From Sphingobium sp. OAS761 (GTDB lineage Bacteria > Pseudomonadota > Alphaproteobacteria > Sphingomonadales > Sphingomonadaceae), in contig NZ_JALJVY010000003.1 in NCBI RefSeq assembly GCF_024168485.1, forward strand, positions 62,001 through 126,000: a DNA stretch of 64,000 nt, in the 5' to 3' direction. Under the pieces are notes generated by a model. It made no database searches. It was not told the origin of the DNA and worked only from the letters and a program-made list of their open reading frames with translations. Below are positions 54,365 through 63,665 of the stretch, one piece after another. The translations under genes and the position numbers were made by a program. The first letter of the stretch is position 1, and the number at the start of each line of letters is the position of its first letter.

Positions 54365-54785
54365 GCCCCGTCACCTCTGAAATGAGGTGAGAACATTTCA
54401 TAAACATTATCCAACAAGTCAAGCCGGTAAGCAGCACTTCCCGCGCTATTGATTGAATATGTGTAGGTCCTGCAGACGATTCCGAAGGTGCTGATCAACA
54501 CCACCGATTCTTAAGCAGTCATTTATGGGGTCTGTCGAAACCCAGCTTTTGCGCGGATTTCAGAAAATGGTGCCAGAAGAGCTTTCGGCCGGGCGACCTA
54601 AGCGATTGATTTCGAAGTCAAATCATAGACTTACGAACTCGCCGAGAGCATTAATAGCACGATCTGGATTCGTGGAAAAGGCTGGACGTCATCGGACGCG
54701 ATGGTTCGAGTCCTGATTGCGCCGGTTTAGGAGGTTCAAAGCTGAGCGGGCAGTGCGTCGCGATGCCCTCGCTGCAACCGGATGA
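54365..54785. other. non-coding gap holding repeat copy A
   Basis: Between the toxin start and the AbiE operator there is no supported gene. It contains the 160-bp repeat at 54553-54714. The rest is AT-richer than the genome average and holds nothing recognised. Confidence 0.4.
54553..54714 (+). repeat. island-flanking structured repeat, copy A
   Basis: Matches copy B at 61673-61821. The strongest part is a 38-bp identical core (54652-54689 here). It contains a 5-bp hairpin with 7-nt loop CACGA-TCTGGAT-TCGTG and ends in a T-arm-like GGTTCGAGTCC. Upstream, TTCG-AAGTC (54612 region) pairs with GACTT-A-CGAA; in copy B the same arms read TTCGCAA and TTGCGAA, so pairing is kept with changed bases. 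It lies upstream of AbiEi. It may be a small RNA gene, a tRNA-derived attachment site, or both. Confidence 0.55.
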
Positions 54786-54838
54786 CATGTGACGAAACCT
54801 CTGATAAAGATGCGATCCATCAGAGGATTCGTCACATG
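54786..54838. promoter_or_regulatory. long inverted repeat overlapping the abiEi start codon
   Basis: Arms CATGTGACGAAACCTCTGAT-like 54788-54805 and 54819-54836, 17 of 18 positions paired, with a 13-nt loop. The right arm ends inside the AbiEi ATG (54836-54838). As DNA it is a good operator for the AbiEi winged helix, known to repress its own operon. As RNA it would hide the start codon. Confidence 0.65.
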
Positions 54839-55456
54839 GCCTCGAGGCCCATCTCGCAACGGACAAAGCTTCGCAGTCTATTTACCGCCCATACAATGAG
54901 GCGCGCGGGAGAGCTGCGTGCCGCCGGCATCGGCCCGCAAACGATAGCGCGGGCCGTCGAGGAAGGTGAACTCGAGCGCATCTCGCGTGGCCTGTATCAA
55001 CGGCGCGGCTCAGAGATTGAAGAGCACCAAATACTGGCTGAAGCTGCGATCCGGGTCCCCAAGGGCGTCATTGCCCTGACCTCGGCGCTGGCCTTTCACG
55101 GCCTGACTGATCAAATGCCGAGACGGATATGGATGGCGATCGGCGCGAGCGATTGGTCGCCAGTGCAATCCTATCCGCCACTGCGGATCGTGCGCTTCAC
55201 CGACCCCTATCTTCGCCAGGGCGTCGAGCATCATACGATCGCCGGCGTAAACGTACCTATCTATTCGATCCCCAAAACCCTCGCCGATGCGTTCCGCAAT
55301 CCCAAGCTGGTCGATCGCTCGGTCGCAGTCGAGGGCCTGCGTGCAGCAATCGAGCAACGCAAGGCGACGCCGAGCGCAATCGCCGAAGGAGCCAAGGCTG
55401 GCGGTGCATGGAAGACTATGCGCCCTTATCTCGAGGCCCTCACCGCCAATGGCTAG
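54836..55456 (+). CDS. abiEi: AbiEi-type antitoxin/repressor (type IV toxin-antitoxin)
   Basis: About 206 residues. The N-terminal winged helix (LRSLFTAHTMRRAGELRAAGI, quoted as LFTAHTMRRAGELRAAGI) is followed by the AbiEi block GELERISRGLYQRRG and the C-terminal domain with EGLRAAIEQRKATPS. Start 54836 has AGAGGA upstream and lies at the end of the palindrome; an in-frame ATG at 54782 would run through it. AbiEi proteins neutralise AbiEii and repress the operon. The stop overlaps abiEii by 8 bp. Confidence 0.85.
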   Translation: MASRPISQRTKLRSLFTAHTMRRAGELRAAGIGPQTIARAVEEGELERISRGLYQRRGSEIEEHQILAEAAIRVPKGVIALTSALAFHGLTDQMPRRIWMAIGASDWSPVQSYPPLRIVRFTDPYLRQGVEHHTIAGVNVPIYSIPKTLADAFRNPKLVDRSVAVEGLRAAIEQRKATPSAIAEGAKAGGAWKTMRPYLEALTANG

Positions 55457-56318
55457 ATCGCCCGCCAACCTCGCCAAGTCGGTCAAGGATCGCCTGCTCA
55501 ATATTTCGCGAAGAGAAGGCCGCGCTTTCGACGTTCTGCTGGTCCGCTTCGCGCTCGAGCGCCTCCTCTATCGGCTGTCGGTCTCGGAATATCGCGAGCG
55601 ATTCGTGCTCAAGGGCGGAATGCTGGTCACGGCGTGGATCGACGACGACAATCGAGTCACGCGAGATGCTGACTTCCTGGGCTATGGCGACGCCAATCCC
55701 GACAAGCTGGTCGCCGACTTCCGGGCAATCATGCAAATTGAAGGAGACGACGGCCTTGTGTTCGACGCCGATGCGTTGGTTGCCAGAGCGATCCGCGAGG
55801 AAATGGAATACGGCGGCGTCAGACTCAAGACGGCGGCCTATCTCGAGCGCACGCGAATACCCGTGACGATCGACATCGGCTTCGGCGATGCGCTGGCGGA
55901 TGCCGCTCAACAACTCGACTACCCGACGCTGCTCGATCTCCCTGTCCCGCACATTAGATCCTACCCGCCGGCGACGGTCATTGCCGAGAAGTTCCAGGCG
56001 ATGGTTGCGCTCGGTGTGCTCAATGGCCGGATGAAGGACTATTATGACCTATGGGCCATCCCCAGGAATCTGGAGATCGCCTCCGAGGATCTGGATGTGG
56101 CCATCCGCGCGACTTTCGAGCGGCGCGGAACACCTATCCCTACCGAACGGCCGCCCGGGCTTTCAGCCGAGATGATGGAGGACGAAACGAAGCAGCTTCA
56201 ATGGCGTGCTTATGCCGCTTCGATCGAACTCGAAGGCCTTGGCCTGAATTCCATCATTGATGCGGTGTGGAATCTTGTAGGGCCGTCGTGCAAACGGCTG
56301 ACGGCAAAGACTGGCTGA
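55449..56318 (+). CDS. abiEii: AbiEii-type toxin, nucleotidyltransferase fold
   Basis: About 289 residues of the AbiEii/AbiGii family. The nucleotidyltransferase motifs are RFVLKGGMLVTAW and TRDADFLGYGD with the metal Asp residues, then VIAEKFQAMVALG and RMKDYYDLWAI in the second half. Members transfer nucleotides to tRNA or other targets and stop growth on phage infection. Translation coupled to abiEi. It lies convergent to rtcR; a tRNA-targeting toxin next to a tRNA-repair operon is a suggestive pairing (inference). Confidence 0.87.
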   Translation: MARSPANLAKSVKDRLLNISRREGRAFDVLLVRFALERLLYRLSVSEYRERFVLKGGMLVTAWIDDDNRVTRDADFLGYGDANPDKLVADFRAIMQIEGDDGLVFDADALVARAIREEMEYGGVRLKTAAYLERTRIPVTIDIGFGDALADAAQQLDYPTLLDLPVPHIRSYPPATVIAEKFQAMVALGVLNGRMKDYYDLWAIPRNLEIASEDLDVAIRATFERRGTPIPTERPPGLSAEMMEDETKQLQWRAYAASIELEGLGLNSIIDAVWNLVGPSCKRLTAKTG

Positions 56319-56465: not shown

Positions 56466-57839
56466 TCAGCCTACCTTTACCGCTCCCCAGTCCAGTCCAA
56501 AGCGCGCGAGATATTTTCGCAGACGATCGGCATCGTTGGAACTGCTGCGTCGGGCGCGTGATGCATTAAACAGGGTTCGCCCCGCCTCTGACAACGAGCG
56601 GCTTGCGCGGCAGACCCGAAGCGCCTCGGCAAGCTGAACGCGATCGAACAAGTCCATCTCGACAATCGCCTGCTCGTCGAGCACATCCGTGAGGATGCCG
56701 GCACCATTGTCCACCTGGCCCGACCAGAGTCGGCGGAGGCGCCCAATTTCCGCTTCCACGCAATCGAGATCGATCCGGCCCTTGGGGCTCAGCGTCGCCA
56801 TGCGTGTGATGCTGGCAGCCAGGTCGCGAAAATTGCCGGGCCATGTCGCTTCGGACCCGTTCGCGAACGCGAGGTAGCGCTGTCGGGCCTCCTTGTTGAA
56901 ACTGGCCCGATCCCCTTCGCGCTCGGCAAACCGGTCGAGTTCATAGTCGAGATTGGGTTCGATATCCTCGCGCCGGTCGGCCAGGCCCGGCAAGCGGAAC
57001 GTCCAAAGATTGAGACGCGCATAAAGATCGTCGCGAAACGCACCCGCCGCGACAGCCTCGCCCAAATCGGTGTTGGTGCCTGCGATCAGCTGGAAGTCAC
57101 TCGACACTTCCTTATCGGCGCCGACCGGCAGGAAGCGCTTGTCCTCGATCGCCCGCAGGATCATCGCCTGCTCATCGAGTCCGAGTTCACCGATCTCGTC
57201 CAGGAACAACATCCCTTTGTCGGCCGCGCGCAGCAGACCCGGGCGATCGGCGACCGCGCCAGTGAACGCCCCTTTGCGATGCCCGAATAGTGCCGACATC
57301 GCACTGTCGCCCTTCAGCGTCGCGCAGTTCACCTCGACGAACGGTCCTGCAATCTGATGCTTGAGCTTCTTCAGCTCGAAGATACGGCGCGCGAGCAAGC
57401 TCTTTCCGGCACCGGTCGGCCCCATCAGCAGGATTGGAGCCTTTGAGCGCAAGGCAACCTGTTCGATCTCGTCGATCATACGATTGAAGGCGGCGTTGCG
57501 CGTGTCGATGCCGGATTTCAGGAACGACGTGCTTTCCGCGCTAGCGACGGCGAAGCGGGTCGCGATGCTGTCGTAGCGCGAGAGGTCGAGGTCGATCGTG
57601 TTCCAGACGCCCGCGGGATTTAGCGTGCCGCGCTCGGGCTGCGTCTGAAGCAGTCTCCCGGGCAGGTAACGTGCCTCGGTCAGCAGGAAGAGGCAGATCT
57701 GCGCGACGTGCGTGCCGGTCGTGATGTGGACCAGATAGTCCTCCGCCTCGGGATCGAGCGGTTCCGCGCGGGCGAAGTCCAGCAGTTTCCCATAGACTTC
57801 CTCGAAATCCCACGGGTCGCGGAAGTCGAGCAGGCGCAT
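56466..57839 (-). pseudogene. rtcR: rtcR, sigma-54 activator of RNA repair, 5'-truncated
   Basis: Homology to RtcR runs from IASVSPETHV to the stop, including the CARF-domain part HITTGTHVAQICLFLLTEARYL, Walker A MGPTGAGKS (about residues 140-147 from the ATG used here), the sigma-54 contact GAFTGA, Walker B MLFLDEIGEL, and the C-terminal helix-turn-helix NDADRLRKYLARFG. About 68 N-terminal residues of the family, with the first CARF strand (GFVGT-type), are absent. The homology stops at 57872/57873, inside unit 1 of the RNA array. ATG 57839 is the first possible start; the frame stays open to 58004 but that part is antisense to the tRNA module. RtcR binds damaged tRNA ends through CARF, so ligand control is probably lost. 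Confidence 0.85.
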
Positions 57840-57866
57840 CTCGACGTGCGTCTCTGGCGAGACCGA

Positions 57867-57991
57867 GGCGATGCCTGACGGACTACATCGACTTCTAATC
57901 GCCAGGTCGCGGGTTCGAGCCCCGCCGGGTCTTCCATGGACCCGTAGCTCAGTTGGTAGAGCGGGAACGTTCGTCAAACACCTGGTCGCCA
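57867..57991 (+). ncRNA. permuted-tRNA RNA unit 1, complete tRNA-Arg(UCU) module
   Basis: Reading in order: GGCGA-TGCC, P2 strand TGACGGAC (57876-57883), TACAT, then tRNA positions 29-76: CGA-CTTCTAA-TCGCC (anticodon TCT), AGGTC, T arm GCGGG-TTCGAGC-CCCGC, acceptor CGGGTCT, T, CCA (57934-57936); one base later positions 1-28 begin: GGACCCG, TA, D arm, G, GG (57938-57965). P2 closes with GTTCGTCA (57969-57976, 8 of 8 pairs) and P1 with TCGCC(A). The two segments total 76 nt, all seven acceptor pairs form, and GG+CGA would complete the anticodon stem against TCGCC. ACCA follows at 57995-57998. The 5' edge overlaps the broken end of rtcR. Confidence 0.8.
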
Positions 57992-58005
57992 TGGACCAAT
58001 TCACA

Positions 58006-58109
58006 GCTGGCGAATGCCGGCGGGACTACATCGGGAAAGGCTGAAAGGCCGAGCGGTTCGAATCCGCCCCGGAGCAATCCGGGATGTCCCGCCTACCCTC
58101 GTCGCCAGC
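58006..58109 (+). ncRNA. permuted-tRNA RNA unit 2, reduced module
   Basis: P1 GCTGGCGA / TCGCCAGC (58006-58013 with 58102-58109) and P2 GGCGGGAC / GTCCCGCC (58019-58026 with 58086-58093) pair perfectly. Between P1 and P2 stands ATGCC; after P2 the shared TACAT. The inner part has a T-arm-like hairpin GCGG-TTCGAAT-CCGC (58053-58067) stacked on an acceptor-like stem CCCGGA / TCCGGG closed by a GCAA tetraloop. No D arm is left, and a small hairpin with GGCTGAAAGGCC precedes the T arm. ACCA follows at 58110-58113. It is the most reduced of the three. Confidence 0.75.
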
Positions 58110-58121
58110 ACCAGACTCAAC

Positions 58122-58246
58122 GTCGGCGAATGCCGGTGGGACTACAGGTCAGAGCGCCTGCCGCAAGGCAGGAGGTCGGCGGTCCAACTCCGCCTCCGGT
58201 TCGCCGGATAGCTCAGGGAAATGTCTCGCCACGTTTCGTCGCCGGC
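58122..58246 (+). ncRNA. permuted-tRNA RNA unit 3, D-loop-opened module with tetraloop caps
   Basis: P1 GTCGGCGA / TCGCCGGC and P2 GGTGGGAC / GTCTCGCC keep all 16 pairs through G-U changes relative to unit 2. Inside, D-stem strand GAGC (58152-58155) comes first, then an anticodon-type stem CCTGCC-GCAA-GGCAGG, AGGTC, T arm GGCGG-TCCAACT-CCGCC, acceptor stem TCCGG-TTCG-CCGGA, TA and the other D-stem strand GCTC (58211-58214). So the tRNA is cut open in the D loop, and acceptor and anticodon ends are capped by UUCG and GCAA. GGCGAATG resembles the Ro-binding motif of Y RNAs. ACCA follows at 58247-58250; rtcB starts 22 bp later. Confidence 0.8.
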
Positions 58247-58271
58247 ACCATGATGAAGCAAGGAGGTCACG

Positions 58272-59498
58272 ATGACCGAAGCAATGTTCGACTACCAGCA
58301 TGTCGAGGGCGGCGTGCCGATCAAGATGTGGACGCGTGGCGTGTCGGTCGAGGACGGCGCGCGGGCTCAGCTCATGCGGGCGGCGCAGATGCCGTTCGTG
58401 TTCAAGCACGTGGCCGCGATGCCAGACGTCCATGTCGGCATCGGCGCGACCGTGGGTTCGGTGATCCCGACCAAGGGCGCGGTCATTCCGGCAGCGGTGG
58501 GCGTCGACATCGGCTGCGGCATGATGGCGGCACGTACCTCGCTTGTTGCGAGCGACCTCCCGGATAACCTGGAAGCCATCCGCTCGGCGATCGAACAGGC
58601 TGTGCCGCATGGTCGGTCGGTCGGTCGCGGTCAGCGCGATCACGGTTCGTGGGGCAGCCCGCCGCCGGCGATCGTCGAGGCGTGGGCGACCCTCGTCCAG
58701 CGCTTCGAACGGCTCACCGACAAGCATCCGCGGCTCAAGAACACGAACAACCTCGTGCACCTGGGCACGCTCGGCACCGGCAACCACTTCATCGAGCTCT
58801 GCCTCGATGAGGAACAGCGGGTGTGGGTGATGCTGCACTCGGGCTCGCGCGGTGTGGGCAATGCGATCGGCACGTTCTTCATCGAACTGGCCAAGCAGGA
58901 CATGCGCAAGTGGTACATCAATCTGCCCGACGAGGACCTCGCCTACTTCCCGGAAGGGACCGATCATTTCGACGACTATGTCGAAGCTGTCGGCTGGGCG
59001 CAGGACTTTGCGGCGCTCAACCGGCGCATAATGATGACAAATGTCATCGCCGCGCTCCGGGGCCAGATTGCCAAGCCGTTCGACGCGGAAATGGAGGCGG
59101 TGAACTGCCACCATAACTACGTCCAGCGGGAGAACCATTTCGGGCAGAATGTCCTGGTCACCCGCAAGGGCGCCGTGCGCGCCGCCAAGGGTGTGATGGG
59201 CATTATCCCGGGTTCGATGGGCGCCAAGTCGTTCATCGTGCGCGGGCTGGGTAACCCGGAATCGTTCGATAGTTGCTCGCATGGTGCCGGTCGGGTGATG
59301 AGCCGGACTGCCGCCAAGAAGCTGGTGACGCTCGACGAGCATATTGCCGACACTGCCGGCGTCGAATGCCGCAAGGACGAAGGCGTGATCGATGAGACGC
59401 CGAAGGCCTACAAGCCGATCGAGGCCGTAATGGCCGCGCAGTCGGACCTGGTCGAGATCGTCCACACGTTGAAGCAGGTGGTGTGCGTCAAGGGCTAG
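58272..59498 (+). CDS. rtcB: RNA-splicing ligase RtcB
   Basis: 408 residues. It joins 2',3'-cyclic phosphate or 3'-phosphate RNA ends to 5'-OH ends using GTP and manganese. Active-site blocks: PDVHVGIGATVG, GVDIGCGMMA with the metal Cys near residue 82, GTLGTGNHFIE, LHSGSRGVGN, NCHHNYVQRE and SCSHGAGRVMS with the guanylylated His near residue 337. AAGGAGG precedes ATG 58272. It lies 26 bp after RNA unit 3, so the RNA units and rtcB may share a transcript. Fits repair of cleaved tRNA. Confidence 0.95.
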   Translation: MTEAMFDYQHVEGGVPIKMWTRGVSVEDGARAQLMRAAQMPFVFKHVAAMPDVHVGIGATVGSVIPTKGAVIPAAVGVDIGCGMMAARTSLVASDLPDNLEAIRSAIEQAVPHGRSVGRGQRDHGSWGSPPPAIVEAWATLVQRFERLTDKHPRLKNTNNLVHLGTLGTGNHFIELCLDEEQRVWVMLHSGSRGVGNAIGTFFIELAKQDMRKWYINLPDEDLAYFPEGTDHFDDYVEAVGWAQDFAALNRRIMMTNVIAALRGQIAKPFDAEMEAVNCHHNYVQRENHFGQNVLVTRKGAVRAAKGVMGIIPGSMGAKSFIVRGLGNPESFDSCSHGAGRVMSRTAAKKLVTLDEHIADTAGVECRKDEGVIDETPKAYKPIEAVMAAQSDLVEIVHTLKQVVCVKG

Positions 59499-59536: not shown

Positions 59537-60565
59537 ATGATCGAGATCGACGGTTCGGAAGGTGAAGGTGGGGGGCAGGTCGTGCGCAATGCGTGCGCGC
59601 TGTCTCTCGTCACCGGCCAGCCGTTCCGTATTACCAATGTGCGCGGCAAGCGCTCGAAGCCGGGGTTGATGCGCCAGCACGTGACCGCGATCGAGGCGGC
59701 GTGCCGGCTCGGCAGCGCCCACTGCGAGGGCCTGACGGTCGGTTCGTCCGAGATCACCTTCGAGCCCGGCCATGTGCGGCCCGGCGAATATCATTTCGCG
59801 GTCGGCACGGCGGGCAGCACCGGCCTTGTGTTCCAGACCGTGCTGATGCCGCTCGTCCTTGCGGACGCACCGTCGCGCCTGGTACTCGAGGGCGGGACGC
59901 ATAACATGCTCGCGCCGCCGTTCGACTTCATCGCGAAGAGCTTCGTGCCGATCATCGAGCGAATGGGGCCGCGCATTTCCGTGCGGCTCGTGCGTCACGG
60001 TTTCTACCCGCGCGGTGGTGGTCGGATCGAGGTGGAGATTACCCCCGCGCCCCTTGCCCGGATCGATTGCCTCGAGCGTGGCGCCCTGCTCTCGCGATCC
60101 GCGACTGCGGTGTTTGCTGGCCTGCCATTCGACATCGCCGATCGCGAGATCAAGACGGCACGGAAATTCCTGGCCGATTGGCCGGAAGAGGCGTTCGCCG
60201 TCCGTGAACTGCCGGCCGAGCAGGGGCCCGGTACGATCCTCCTGCTGGAGGCGGCGTTCGAGCAGGTGACCGAGGTGGTGAGCGGTTTCGGCAAACTCGG
60301 CGTCTCGGCGGAGTCGCTCGCCAAGACCTCGGCGCATCGGATGGCTGGCTATCTTGCAAGCAACGCGTTCGCGGGGCCTTATCTGGCCGACCAGTTGCTG
60401 CTGCCTTTCGCCCTCGCTGGCGGCGGCAGCTTCACGACGGTGAAGCCCAGCCAGCACTCCCTCACCGCACGCGACGTGATCGAGCGGTTTACCGGGCAAC
60501 GCTGGGTGTTCGAGCAGCAGGCAGATGGCTGCCACCTCGTTCACAAGCGCGGGCGGGATAGCTGA
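59537..60565 (+). CDS. rtcA: RNA 3'-terminal phosphate cyclase RtcA
   Basis: About 342 residues. RtcA turns 3'-phosphate RNA ends into 2',3'-cyclic phosphates with ATP, through a covalent His-AMP. IDGSEGEGGGQVVRNACAL and RGKRSKPGLMRQH mark the N-terminal domain; GGSFTTVKPSQHSLT carries the adenylylated His near residue 307. ATG 59537 follows AGAGAAG; an in-frame start at 59483 would overlap rtcB. In other bacteria RtcA is also needed to make the cyclic-phosphate signal for RtcR. Ends convergent to the HNH gene. Confidence 0.93.
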   Translation: MIEIDGSEGEGGGQVVRNACALSLVTGQPFRITNVRGKRSKPGLMRQHVTAIEAACRLGSAHCEGLTVGSSEITFEPGHVRPGEYHFAVGTAGSTGLVFQTVLMPLVLADAPSRLVLEGGTHNMLAPPFDFIAKSFVPIIERMGPRISVRLVRHGFYPRGGGRIEVEITPAPLARIDCLERGALLSRSATAVFAGLPFDIADREIKTARKFLADWPEEAFAVRELPAEQGPGTILLLEAAFEQVTEVVSGFGKLGVSAESLAKTSAHRMAGYLASNAFAGPYLADQLLLPFALAGGGSFTTVKPSQHSLTARDVIERFTGQRWVFEQQADGCHLVHKRGRDS

Positions 60566-60591: not shown

Positions 60592-61491
60592 TCAATGTTT
60601 GAAGCAGTGCTCCCGATGCCATCTGACGAATTGCTGGTGCGGGCGATCGGCTTCTCGCATCGGCATCAACAGGTGTCCGCTGCTATTGATCACGCCGCGG
60701 ATGCTCTCCTGGTCGTTTGCCTGTCGCGACACCAGGATCTGGAGCTCGTCATCGAGCCCGATCAGCCCTCGATCGAACATCCAGTGCGCCGTTCCGGACA
60801 GGGCAAGACCGTTAGTGACGATGTCGGGTCCGTTTTCTTCGACGGGGCGAATATGTGCGGCCTCCACCTCGGCCCGCCCGCCACCGTTGATGAGCTTCAA
60901 ACCCGTGACGACGCAGCGTTCATCATAGGCGCGCAAGACGATCCGCCGGAACACGCGGTCCCGAACGACCCGCGATACGAGCGAAGCAACTCGCGCCCGC
61001 GCCTCGTCAACCACGAAGGGTGCGCGCTCTTCGCGCAAAACAGGGCCGGCATCCGCAGTCCCGGTTCGCGGCAGCAGCGGACTATCGTCGGCGAGGCCCG
61101 CCTCGACGATCCGGCTGAAATCACCTGACGACAACCCGCGGACCGCAGCCTGCGCACGTCCTGAAACGCGCCCCGCATCGTTGAGAACGCCGCGTTCGAT
61201 CGGTCCGCTCTCGTTTGCAAATGGGACCGGCGTGGCGAAATCGAGGTAGCTTCCTGGTTCGATCAGCGCGAGGTACATGCCAGGCGTTGATGGATCGGGG
61301 ACAACACGCTCTACTTTGGCAACAGCATAATAGCCTTTCGTATCAGGCACTTTCCGGGGTTCGTAATATATGGTCCAGTCGCCGACACATGCCTGCGCGC
61401 GCTCCAGATACTGCCTCGGAAACTGGTACCGCTCGGCTGGTGTATCGTCATAGATCGAGTCGGATCTGTGGATGAAAACGCCGAAAGCCAT
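60592..61491 (-). CDS. HNH nuclease, probable restriction-type enzyme
   Basis: About 299 residues. The C-terminal HNH_2-type domain has RRIVLRAYDERCVVTGL, VEAAHIRPVEENGPDIVTNG and ALSGTAHWMFDRGLI, giving the His-Asn-His metal site. The N-terminal 120 residues (YDDTPAERYQFPRQYLERA, YYAVAKVERVVPDPS) form a beta-rich domain seen in front of such nucleases and may read modified DNA. Probably a modification-dependent or defensive nuclease. It is convergent with rtcA inside the bracketed island. Confidence 0.8.
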   Translation of the reverse strand: MAFGVFIHRSDSIYDDTPAERYQFPRQYLERAQACVGDWTIYYEPRKVPDTKGYYAVAKVERVVPDPSTPGMYLALIEPGSYLDFATPVPFANESGPIERGVLNDAGRVSGRAQAAVRGLSSGDFSRIVEAGLADDSPLLPRTGTADAGPVLREERAPFVVDEARARVASLVSRVVRDRVFRRIVLRAYDERCVVTGLKLINGGGRAEVEAAHIRPVEENGPDIVTNGLALSGTAHWMFDRGLIGLDDELQILVSRQANDQESIRGVINSSGHLLMPMREADRPHQQFVRWHREHCFKH

Positions 61492-62080: not shown

Positions 62081-62108
62081 TGGTTGCGCATCATCGAGGG
62101 TGAATGCC

Positions 62109-63665
62109 GTGGCAACTCCCCAGCAAAAGCTCGCGGACGCGCTCGATACGCTCCGCACGCTTCAGGACCGCAACCTCGTCGCCATCCGCAGCGACGATCT
62201 CAGTCGGCCCCAGCGCGAGCTGCTCATGAAGCAGGGCTTCCTGCAGGAAGTCATGAAGGGCTGGTATATCCCTGCACGGCCTGATGCGGGCGCTGGCGAA
62301 AGCACGGCCTGGTATACCTCCTATTGGGGCTTCTGCGGCGCCTATCTGAACGAACGCTTCGGTGAAGACTGGTCCCTCTCCCCTGAGCTCTCGATCGCGC
62401 TGCAAACGGGAAATCGCACGGTTCCAAAGCAGCTCCTCGTGCGCACGCCGAAAGGCGGCAACAAGCCGACGGCACTGCCCTTGGGCACTTCCTTGTTCGA
62501 CGTCCGTGCGGCGATCCCGACACCGGAGGATGCCGCGGCACAGGACGGGTTGCGCCTCTTCTCGATTCCCGCTGCCCTCATTGCGAGTGCACCCGGTCTC
62601 TACGAAAACAATGCGATCGACGCCCGAGCAGCCTTGGCGACCGTGCGGGACGCGTCCGAATTGCTGGGACGATTGCTCCAAGGAGGCCACAGCGCGATCG
62701 CCGGCCGTCTGGCCGGCGCCTTCCGCAACATCGGGCGCGAACGCATTGCCGACGACATTTTGAAGGCGATGCGGTCGGCAGGCTATACCGTGCGCGAGCA
62801 GGATCCGTTCGCGACAAAGCTCGAGACTCTCCTGCCGGCGCGTGAGCGCTCTCCCTATGCGGGCCGGATCCGCCTGATGTGGCAGGAGATGCGCGGAGCA
62901 GTCCTTGAGCGATTCCCACCGCCGCCGGGCCGCCCCGCCGATATCGGCGCCTATCTCAAGCGCGTGCAGGACAGCTACGTCACCGACGCCTATCATTCGC
63001 TATCGATCGAGGGCTATCGCGTCAGCCCGGAACTGATCGAGCGCGTCCGCAGCGGCACGTGGAATCCGGAAGCCGACGAGCAGGATCGCGAATATAAGGA
63101 TGGACTGGCCGCACGCGGCTACTGGCTCGCCTATCAAGCTGTTCTCAAAAGCCTGAATCGCGTCCTGGCCGGCGAGAATCCTGGCCTCGTCGCCGACGAG
63201 GAGCACGGCGACTGGTATCGCGAGATGTTCACGCCGAGTGTTACCGCAGGATTGATCAGCGCGAGCGATCTCGCCGGATACCGCAACGGTCAGGTCTATC
63301 TGCGCGGCTCGATGCATGTACCGCTCAACTGCGATGCTGTCCGCGATGCGATGCCGGTGTTCTTCGAATTGCTAAGCGAGGAAACCGAGCCTGCGGTCCG
63401 CGTCGTCCTCGGCCACTTCATCTTCGTCTACATCCATCCCTATATGGACGGGAATGGAAGAACCGGCCGCTTCCTGATGAATGTCATGCTCGCGGCTGGC
63501 GGCTATCCGTGGACGGTCGTGCCCGTCGAGCAGCGCGCCGATTATATGGCTGCGCTTGAGGAGGCCAGCGGCCGGCAGGACATTCGCCCCTTCACGGAGT
63601 TCCTGGCGCAATTGCTGGACCGCGAACTGAAGGGGGAGCCAGTCGCCCGGCTTCCGAAAGCGTGA
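62109..63665 (+). CDS. winged-helix/AbiEi-like domain fused to Fic AMP-transferase
   Basis: About 518 residues. The C-terminal Fic domain has the catalytic motif HPYMDGNGRTGRF near residue 443. An inhibitory motif of S-x-x-x-E-G type (HSLSIEGYRV) lies near residue 297, placing it among self-inhibited Fic proteins. The N-terminal 60 residues (LSRPQRELLMKQGFLQEVMKG, quoted as LSRPQRELLMKQGFLQEVM, then GWYIPARP) resemble the AbiEi antitoxin winged helix. Fic enzymes attach AMP to target proteins. GTG 62109 is 8 nt from GAGGG; GTG 62100 is the alternative. A DNA-binding toxin that reads its own 24-bp array is likely. Confidence 0.83.
   Translation: MATPQQKLADALDTLRTLQDRNLVAIRSDDLSRPQRELLMKQGFLQEVMKGWYIPARPDAGAGESTAWYTSYWGFCGAYLNERFGEDWSLSPELSIALQTGNRTVPKQLLVRTPKGGNKPTALPLGTSLFDVRAAIPTPEDAAAQDGLRLFSIPAALIASAPGLYENNAIDARAALATVRDASELLGRLLQGGHSAIAGRLAGAFRNIGRERIADDILKAMRSAGYTVREQDPFATKLETLLPARERSPYAGRIRLMWQEMRGAVLERFPPPPGRPADIGAYLKRVQDSYVTDAYHSLSIEGYRVSPELIERVRSGTWNPEADEQDREYKDGLAARGYWLAYQAVLKSLNRVLAGENPGLVADEEHGDWYREMFTPSVTAGLISASDLAGYRNGQVYLRGSMHVPLNCDAVRDAMPVFFELLSEETEPAVRVVLGHFIFVYIHPYMDGNGRTGRFLMNVMLAAGGYPWTVVPVEQRADYMAALEEASGRQDIRPFTEFLAQLLDRELKGEPVARLPKA

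Follow-up and report, generated by a model that had tools for sequence, protein, structure and literature searches.

YrlA RNAs in rsr-rtcBA operons are already known, and the YrlA stem is described as tethering Rsr, with the tRNA-like part recognised by tRNA-modifying enzymes and PNPase (PMC8394870, PMC7790460). The role of Y RNAs in RNA-repair operons was, as its authors state, not addressed in one of these studies (Hughes et al., PMC7790460). The closest described arrangement is the Salmonella rsr-yrlBA-rtcBA operon, which the arrays considered here resemble in the outer stem, in a permuted module of T arm, acceptor and D arm, and in their location beside rtcBA under RtcR. The plain rtcR-rtcBA operon of the E. 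coli type has rtcR divergent from rtcBA, as do the 45 of 80 listed loci without rsr. A third likeness is to the tRNA-like domain of tmRNA, also a tRNA mimic within a larger RNA, which is compared with YrlA in PMC8394870.

Here, we describe a locus in a 64,000-nucleotide stretch of Sphingobium sp. OAS761 (the window), where three tandem plus-strand units, U1, U2 and U3, lie between a truncated rtcR on the minus strand and rtcB. We consider it likely that they are YrlA-type Y RNAs left behind when a repair operon of the rsr-Y RNA-rtcBA type lost its promoter, rsr and the start of rtcR by deletion. In contrast to the Salmonella operon, such loci hold up to six units, the modules are opened in the D loop (U3), lack the D arm (U2) or, in some, keep an anticodon-type hairpin (U1), and the window has neither rsr nor a sigma-54 site and gives Rfam scores below the gathering cut-off. 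Unlike the plain operon, the window has Y units, and its rtcR-rtcB gap appears to derive from the rsr-bearing form; unlike tmRNA, its units have no reading frame, and the tRNA body is attached to a Y RNA stem. The wider pattern of interest is one to six Y RNAs before rtcB, with several permutation types per locus. Among the literature titles and abstracts listed, we found none that deals with D-loop-opened modules or anticodon loop variety in such arrays; part of the array and module findings may be in print already, perhaps in the main bacterial Y RNA survey (Chen et al. 2014, RNA 20:1715), the YrlA structure paper or a review.

Identity of the three units

The locus comprises the following features, in window coordinates.

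56466-57872, minus strand: rtcR without its first 62 residues (RtcR alignment, PF06956 profile)
57867-57873: inferred deletion junction, the rtcR/Y RNA join within U1 P1 (blastn against the Sphingomonas populi locus L004)
57867-57990 (57865-57995 at widest), plus strand: U1, Y RNA unit (RF02553 match, class covariation)
57867-57871/57986-57990, plus strand: U1 outer stem P1
57876-57883/57969-57976, plus strand: U1 inner stem P2
57889-57901, plus strand: U1 anticodon-type hairpin, loop CTTCTAA
57909-57925, plus strand: U1 T arm
57926-57944, plus strand: U1 acceptor-like hairpin
57947-57962, plus strand: U1 D arm
58008-58107 (58007-58111 at widest), plus strand: U2, Y RNA unit without D arm (RF02553, covariation, fold z)
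58124-58244 (58123-58248 at widest), plus strand: U3, Y RNA unit (RF02553, class covariation, fold z)
58152-58155, plus strand: U3 D 3' strand
58157-58172, plus strand: U3 anticodon stem with GCAA loop
58178-58194, plus strand: U3 T arm
58195-58208, plus strand: U3 acceptor-like hairpin
58211-58214, plus strand: U3 D 5' strand
58272-59498, plus strand: rtcB, RNA ligase (PF01139, E 2.8e-128)
59537-60565, plus strand: rtcA, RNA 3'-phosphate cyclase (PF01137, E 5e-72)

In an Rfam search of window positions 57000-59000, run in E-value mode, each unit matched the YrlA family RF02553 over the whole model, U1 with 56.4 bits (E 1.4e-11), U2 with 39.0 bits (E 1.5e-6) and U3 with 32.2 bits (E 1.3e-4); none of the three reaches the gathering score of 69. 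These were the only RF02553 matches in the whole genome (150 of 380 candidates scored). rtcB and rtcA are intact and adjacent by their PF01139 and PF01137 matches, and ARAGORN found no tRNA genes in the window. The rtcR open frame (minus strand, 56466-58004) extends antisense across U1 and into U2; at its GTG (58004), automated annotation might place a spurious start of RtcR.

The original prediction, made from the sequence alone, had proposed three tandem units upstream of rtcB, each with P1 and P2 stems and all pointing toward rtcB; the units are visible in the sequence and in the plus-strand RF02553 matches, the stems are present as described, and all three units share the strand of rtcB. 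All three are built to one plan: P1 forms the outer stem and P2 the inner one, ACUAC follows P2, and each unit has a tRNA-like module. The outer-stem motif GGCGAAUGC is exact in U2 and U3, whereas U1 has GGCGATGC at the junction and so lacks one A of the usual GGCGAATGC. Two elements of the proposed frame did not survive comparison: relatives do not generally share the ACCA tail, and the GGGA strings, taken as a common loop side, sit in different parts of the three units. The suggestion that the units could be Y RNAs is supported by the RF02553 matches, albeit below the gathering score, and by covariation, and the units are of Y-RNA type. Judged from sequence, U1 to U3 descend from Y RNAs but may no longer work as such in this strain.

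Comparison of the modules with tRNAs

The U1 module runs in the order anticodon-type hairpin, variable region, T arm, closed acceptor-like hairpin and D arm; by this order of parts it is a putative tRNA opened between the D and anticodon arms, and its loop, CTTCTAA, is the anticodon loop of this genome's tRNA-Arg(UCU). In U3 a D 3' strand comes first, then an anticodon stem capped by a GCAA loop, the T arm, an acceptor-like hairpin that is closed, and last the D 5' strand; the predicted fold is that of a tRNA with its opening in the D loop. U2 consists of a hairpin like a long variable arm, a T arm and an acceptor-like hairpin, without a D arm. Each module was scored against doubled, and hence permutable, tRNAs, with 300 shuffles per unit. 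U1 scored 74.5 (shuffle maximum 41.5; best unpermuted 47.5), U3 52.5 (maximum 45.8; best unpermuted 44.5) and U2 39.25 (maximum 37.5; best unpermuted 33.75). All three beat 300 of 300 shuffles, U2 narrowly, in line with the earlier proposal of three different permuted tRNA modules. Assigning one parent tRNA to each module was rejected: U1 aligns best with tRNA-Lys(UUU), then with tRNA-Asp, yet its loop is that of tRNA-Arg(UCU), and the U2 score is close to shuffle level.

Covariation and folding

In alignments with relatives, standard pairs fill 98.9% of cells for the U1 class (20 rows; double-sided changes at 16 of 32 pairs), 99.4% for the U2 class (20 rows; 7 of 18 pairs, with P1, P2 and the T stem counted and the acceptor and variable hairpins left uncounted) and 97.2% for the U3 class (12 rows; 13 of 33 pairs), the P1 and P2 percentages being favoured because the unit parser requires these stems to pair, and the rows being mutually related. 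The U1-class rows are 20 of the 58 units labelled I, chosen mostly for the anticodon-type hairpin; the T, D and acceptor stems were not a basis for the choice. The U2-class rows are 19 of the 27 units labelled III plus L035:5735 (labelled V), and those of the U3 class are the window unit, 10 of the 11 other units labelled II (L038 being omitted as mislabelled) and L029:5704 (labelled I). In none of the three alignments did any of 500 shuffles equal the covariation score or the percentage of cells paired, and sliding the stem partners destroyed the pairing; on a lesser measure, further pair types, the U1 class was matched by 2 of 500 shuffles. As a control, at least 12 of the 13 P1 and P2 pairs form in 115 of 130 units versus 56 of 650 shuffled downstream stretches. 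P1/P2 pairing is kept in related genomes. A scan of the opposite strand of the gaps, other than those of L145 and L056, found no core motif.

Single-sequence folding supports U2 (z -2.48) and U3 (z -2.52), with 3 of 200 shuffles equally good in each case, and gives no support for U1 (z -0.58, 53 of 200 shuffles equally good). The class IV unit of L143 folds worse than its own shuffles (z +2.19).

Units at other rtcB loci

The 80 rtcB loci compared are the matches listed from an RtcB scan. Among them, 111 units lie upstream of rtcB at 35 loci, which answers in the positive whether homologous units exist elsewhere. rsr is present at 35 of the 80, and Y units occur at 34 of these 35 (the exception being L082) versus 1 of the 45 without rsr, all among the matches listed; that one, L056, is cut off 461 bases before rtcB. 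With the window included, 130 units were parsed in 40 records, one to six per record, and Rsr is co-encoded in 38 of the 40. At least two module classes occur in 37 of the 40 records by a rough classifier, whose automatic labels are wrong for L038 -697, L029 -297, L031 -514, L035 -266, L051 -158 and L143 -114; L053 -1421 is a doubtful unit. Related species make these counts non-independent samples.

RF02553 matched 27 of 94 congeners at E 0.001 or better and six below 1e-8 (G000, which is this genome, G024, G026, G027, G085 and G093). The weak congener matches were rejected as arrays. The family also matched 7 of 14 control genomes at that level; of the weak matches, the one inspected, in G011, falls in a place (L148) with neither rtcB nor rsr that holds an ordinary tRNA-Lys gene.

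Several other forms were observed in these arrays. In a further module class, the first unit of many arrays (for example L004 -690, L005 -564 and L143 -553, relative to rtcB), parts of the D arm are swapped, and its ends UGUC/GACA or UCCA/UGGA could pair across these parts as a pseudoknot, as read from the alignment; plain folding gives this no support. In minimal units (L023 -794, L027 -769, L031 -392 and L034 -533, relative to rtcB) the module has hardly anything beyond an Asp(GUC)-type anticodon hairpin, ATCCTGTCACGAT, and one other hairpin. True tRNA genes also occur: a tRNA-Pro(UGG) gene lies directly before rsr in L018, L020, L029, L031, L042, L049, L145 and L146, while in L007 and L041 it precedes rtcB. 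Wherever a sigma-54 type site was scored, the gene is downstream of it, as if a spare tRNA were under RtcR control too. In a Caulobacterales MAG, seven tRNA genes (Gln, Arg, Leu, His, Asn, Pro and Tyr) stand between the Y units and rtcB (L053, 5351-5951).

The missing rsr gene

The related locus of Sphingomonas populi (L004; RtcB 96%) has the order rtcR (minus strand), sigma-54 type site (TGGCACG-N4-CCGCA), rsr, five Y units, rtcB and rtcA. Its 515-residue Rsr matches Pfam vWA_Ro60 (E 3.5e-18), the solved Rsr structure 2nvo (E 8.2e-15) and, below the family cut-off, NCBIfam Rsr (E 3e-18). By blastn, window positions 56486-57873 correspond to L004 1899-3286 and 57867-60514 to L004 5617-8243, and the intervening 2.33 kb (L004 3287-5616) has no window counterpart. 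Relative to L004, the window thus lacks the promoter, the whole of rsr, two Y units and the N-terminal 62 residues of RtcR. The window RtcR aligns from residue 63 of 529, and its CARF profile, PF06956, is matched from position 61 of 183. U1 is the counterpart of L004 5616-5742, and the join inside its P1 removes one base of the motif. None of the five L004 units is a direct counterpart of U3, and the ancestor must therefore have differed from L004.

The best sigma-54 type site in the window gap scores 15.5, which is shuffle level (shuffle mean 15.2), whereas a site of at least 17.5 occurs in 70 of 74 other gaps among the loci listed versus 7% of shuffles. Within rtcR, position 57660 has a weaker sigma-54-like string that scores 16.5. 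A simple sigma-70 scan found nothing, though promoters of other kinds may be present. A protein search found no Rsr in this genome, which is rated 99.96% complete, and was positive in 5 of 94 congeners; these five (G024, G026, G027, G085 and G093) are, besides the present genome, the only ones with a YrlA match below E 1e-8. The TROVE domain (PF05731) was rejected as proof of Ro absence, as the L004-type Rsr matches it at only E 9e-4 and it was found in 0 of 94 congeners versus the 5 with Rsr by protein search.

The original prediction took the locus to be free of Ro protein. A working system of this kind, in which RtcB and RtcA would use the three RNAs directly, whether as substrates, as reporters or as decoys, would agree with the absence of Rsr by protein search, the kept unit stems and the open, conserved rtcB and rtcA. 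However, in relatives rsr lies between rtcR and the array, here the sigma-54 site and the beginning of rtcR are gone along with rsr, and elsewhere units go with rsr (at 34 of 35 loci versus 1 of 45 without it, among the matches listed); we regard this explanation as very unlikely. An assembly fault, by which a strain with the whole operon lost 2.3 kb between similar motifs in the draft, strikes us as only slightly less improbable. The draft does consist of 36 contigs and the junction falls at the GGCGA..TGC motif common to the units, but rsr and the rtcR start are non-repeats, no Rsr was found anywhere in a genome of such completeness, and rsr is damaged elsewhere too. Such damage was observed beside Y units at L049 (4393-5174), where rsr matches residues 1-118 and 371-515 and none of 119-370, and in G024 (L147), where rsr is reduced to a fragment containing a stop and rtcB is broken up.

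We therefore favour deletion of the promoter, rsr and the rtcR start from an ancestral repair operon. All three remaining frames are open, with dN/dS against L004 of 0.07 for rtcR, 0.05 for rtcB and 0.21 for rtcA, from which the deletion is probably young; these values fit a young deletion and also a locus still in use. With the promoter and Rsr gone, U1 to U3 are predicted to be, and in this genome probably are, relics, in an array that is expected to be silent or to receive no more than read-through. The window would offer a natural genome in which three units were kept after Rsr loss.

Predicted roles of the units

In relatives, RtcR would sense broken tRNA and switch on the operon. The common P1/P2 stem is predicted to bind Rsr, and the module at the stem end, opened at a differing point in each unit, to bind tRNA-recognising proteins. 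Several different tRNA-like ends per array would provide several adaptors for Rsr, and units elsewhere are most likely interchangeable Rsr adaptors with tRNA-mimicking ends; perhaps they are also decoys for anticodon nucleases.

The first-hairpin 7-base loop is an exact tRNA anticodon loop in 17 of 130 units (43 reference loops), compared with a mean of 0.06 and a maximum of 1 in 300 shuffles, and it varies among relatives (UCU in L004, GUU in L011, UGU in L023 and GCU in L026). This excess would be expected if the arrays in relatives were mainly decoys, with anticodon-bearing units competing for anticodon nucleases and RtcB meanwhile sealing the tRNAs that had been cut, and Hughes et al. suggest that YrlA could competitively inhibit an anticodon nuclease (PMC7790460). 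However, 113 of the 130 units have no exact loop, the D-loop-opened units keep the anticodon stem but no 7-base loop, and the tRNA-like domain of YrlA was reportedly no substrate of that nuclease (Hughes et al., PMC7790460). A mainly decoy role is therefore possible but doubtful, and we prefer the adaptor reading for the arrays as a whole. More speculatively, sphingomonads and some other proteobacteria might hold a library of fake tRNAs: arrayed Y RNAs with tRNA bodies opened at differing points on an Rsr-binding handle, some with a true anticodon loop, would be made with RtcB upon tRNA cutting and lure tRNA-cutting and tRNA-handling enzymes to Rsr while the real tRNAs are mended. Because neither the permutation point nor the anticodon loop is uniform among modules, the proteins caught by each module could be tested directly, as could whether the array loops match the nucleases that each species meets.

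Neighbouring genes

An AbiEi/AbiEii toxin-antitoxin pair adjoins rtcR (window 54782-56318); some AbiEii relatives act on tRNA ends. Downstream of rtcA lie HNH endonuclease-type and Fic-domain genes (window 60592-61491 and 62100-63665), which give the locus a defence-like neighbourhood.
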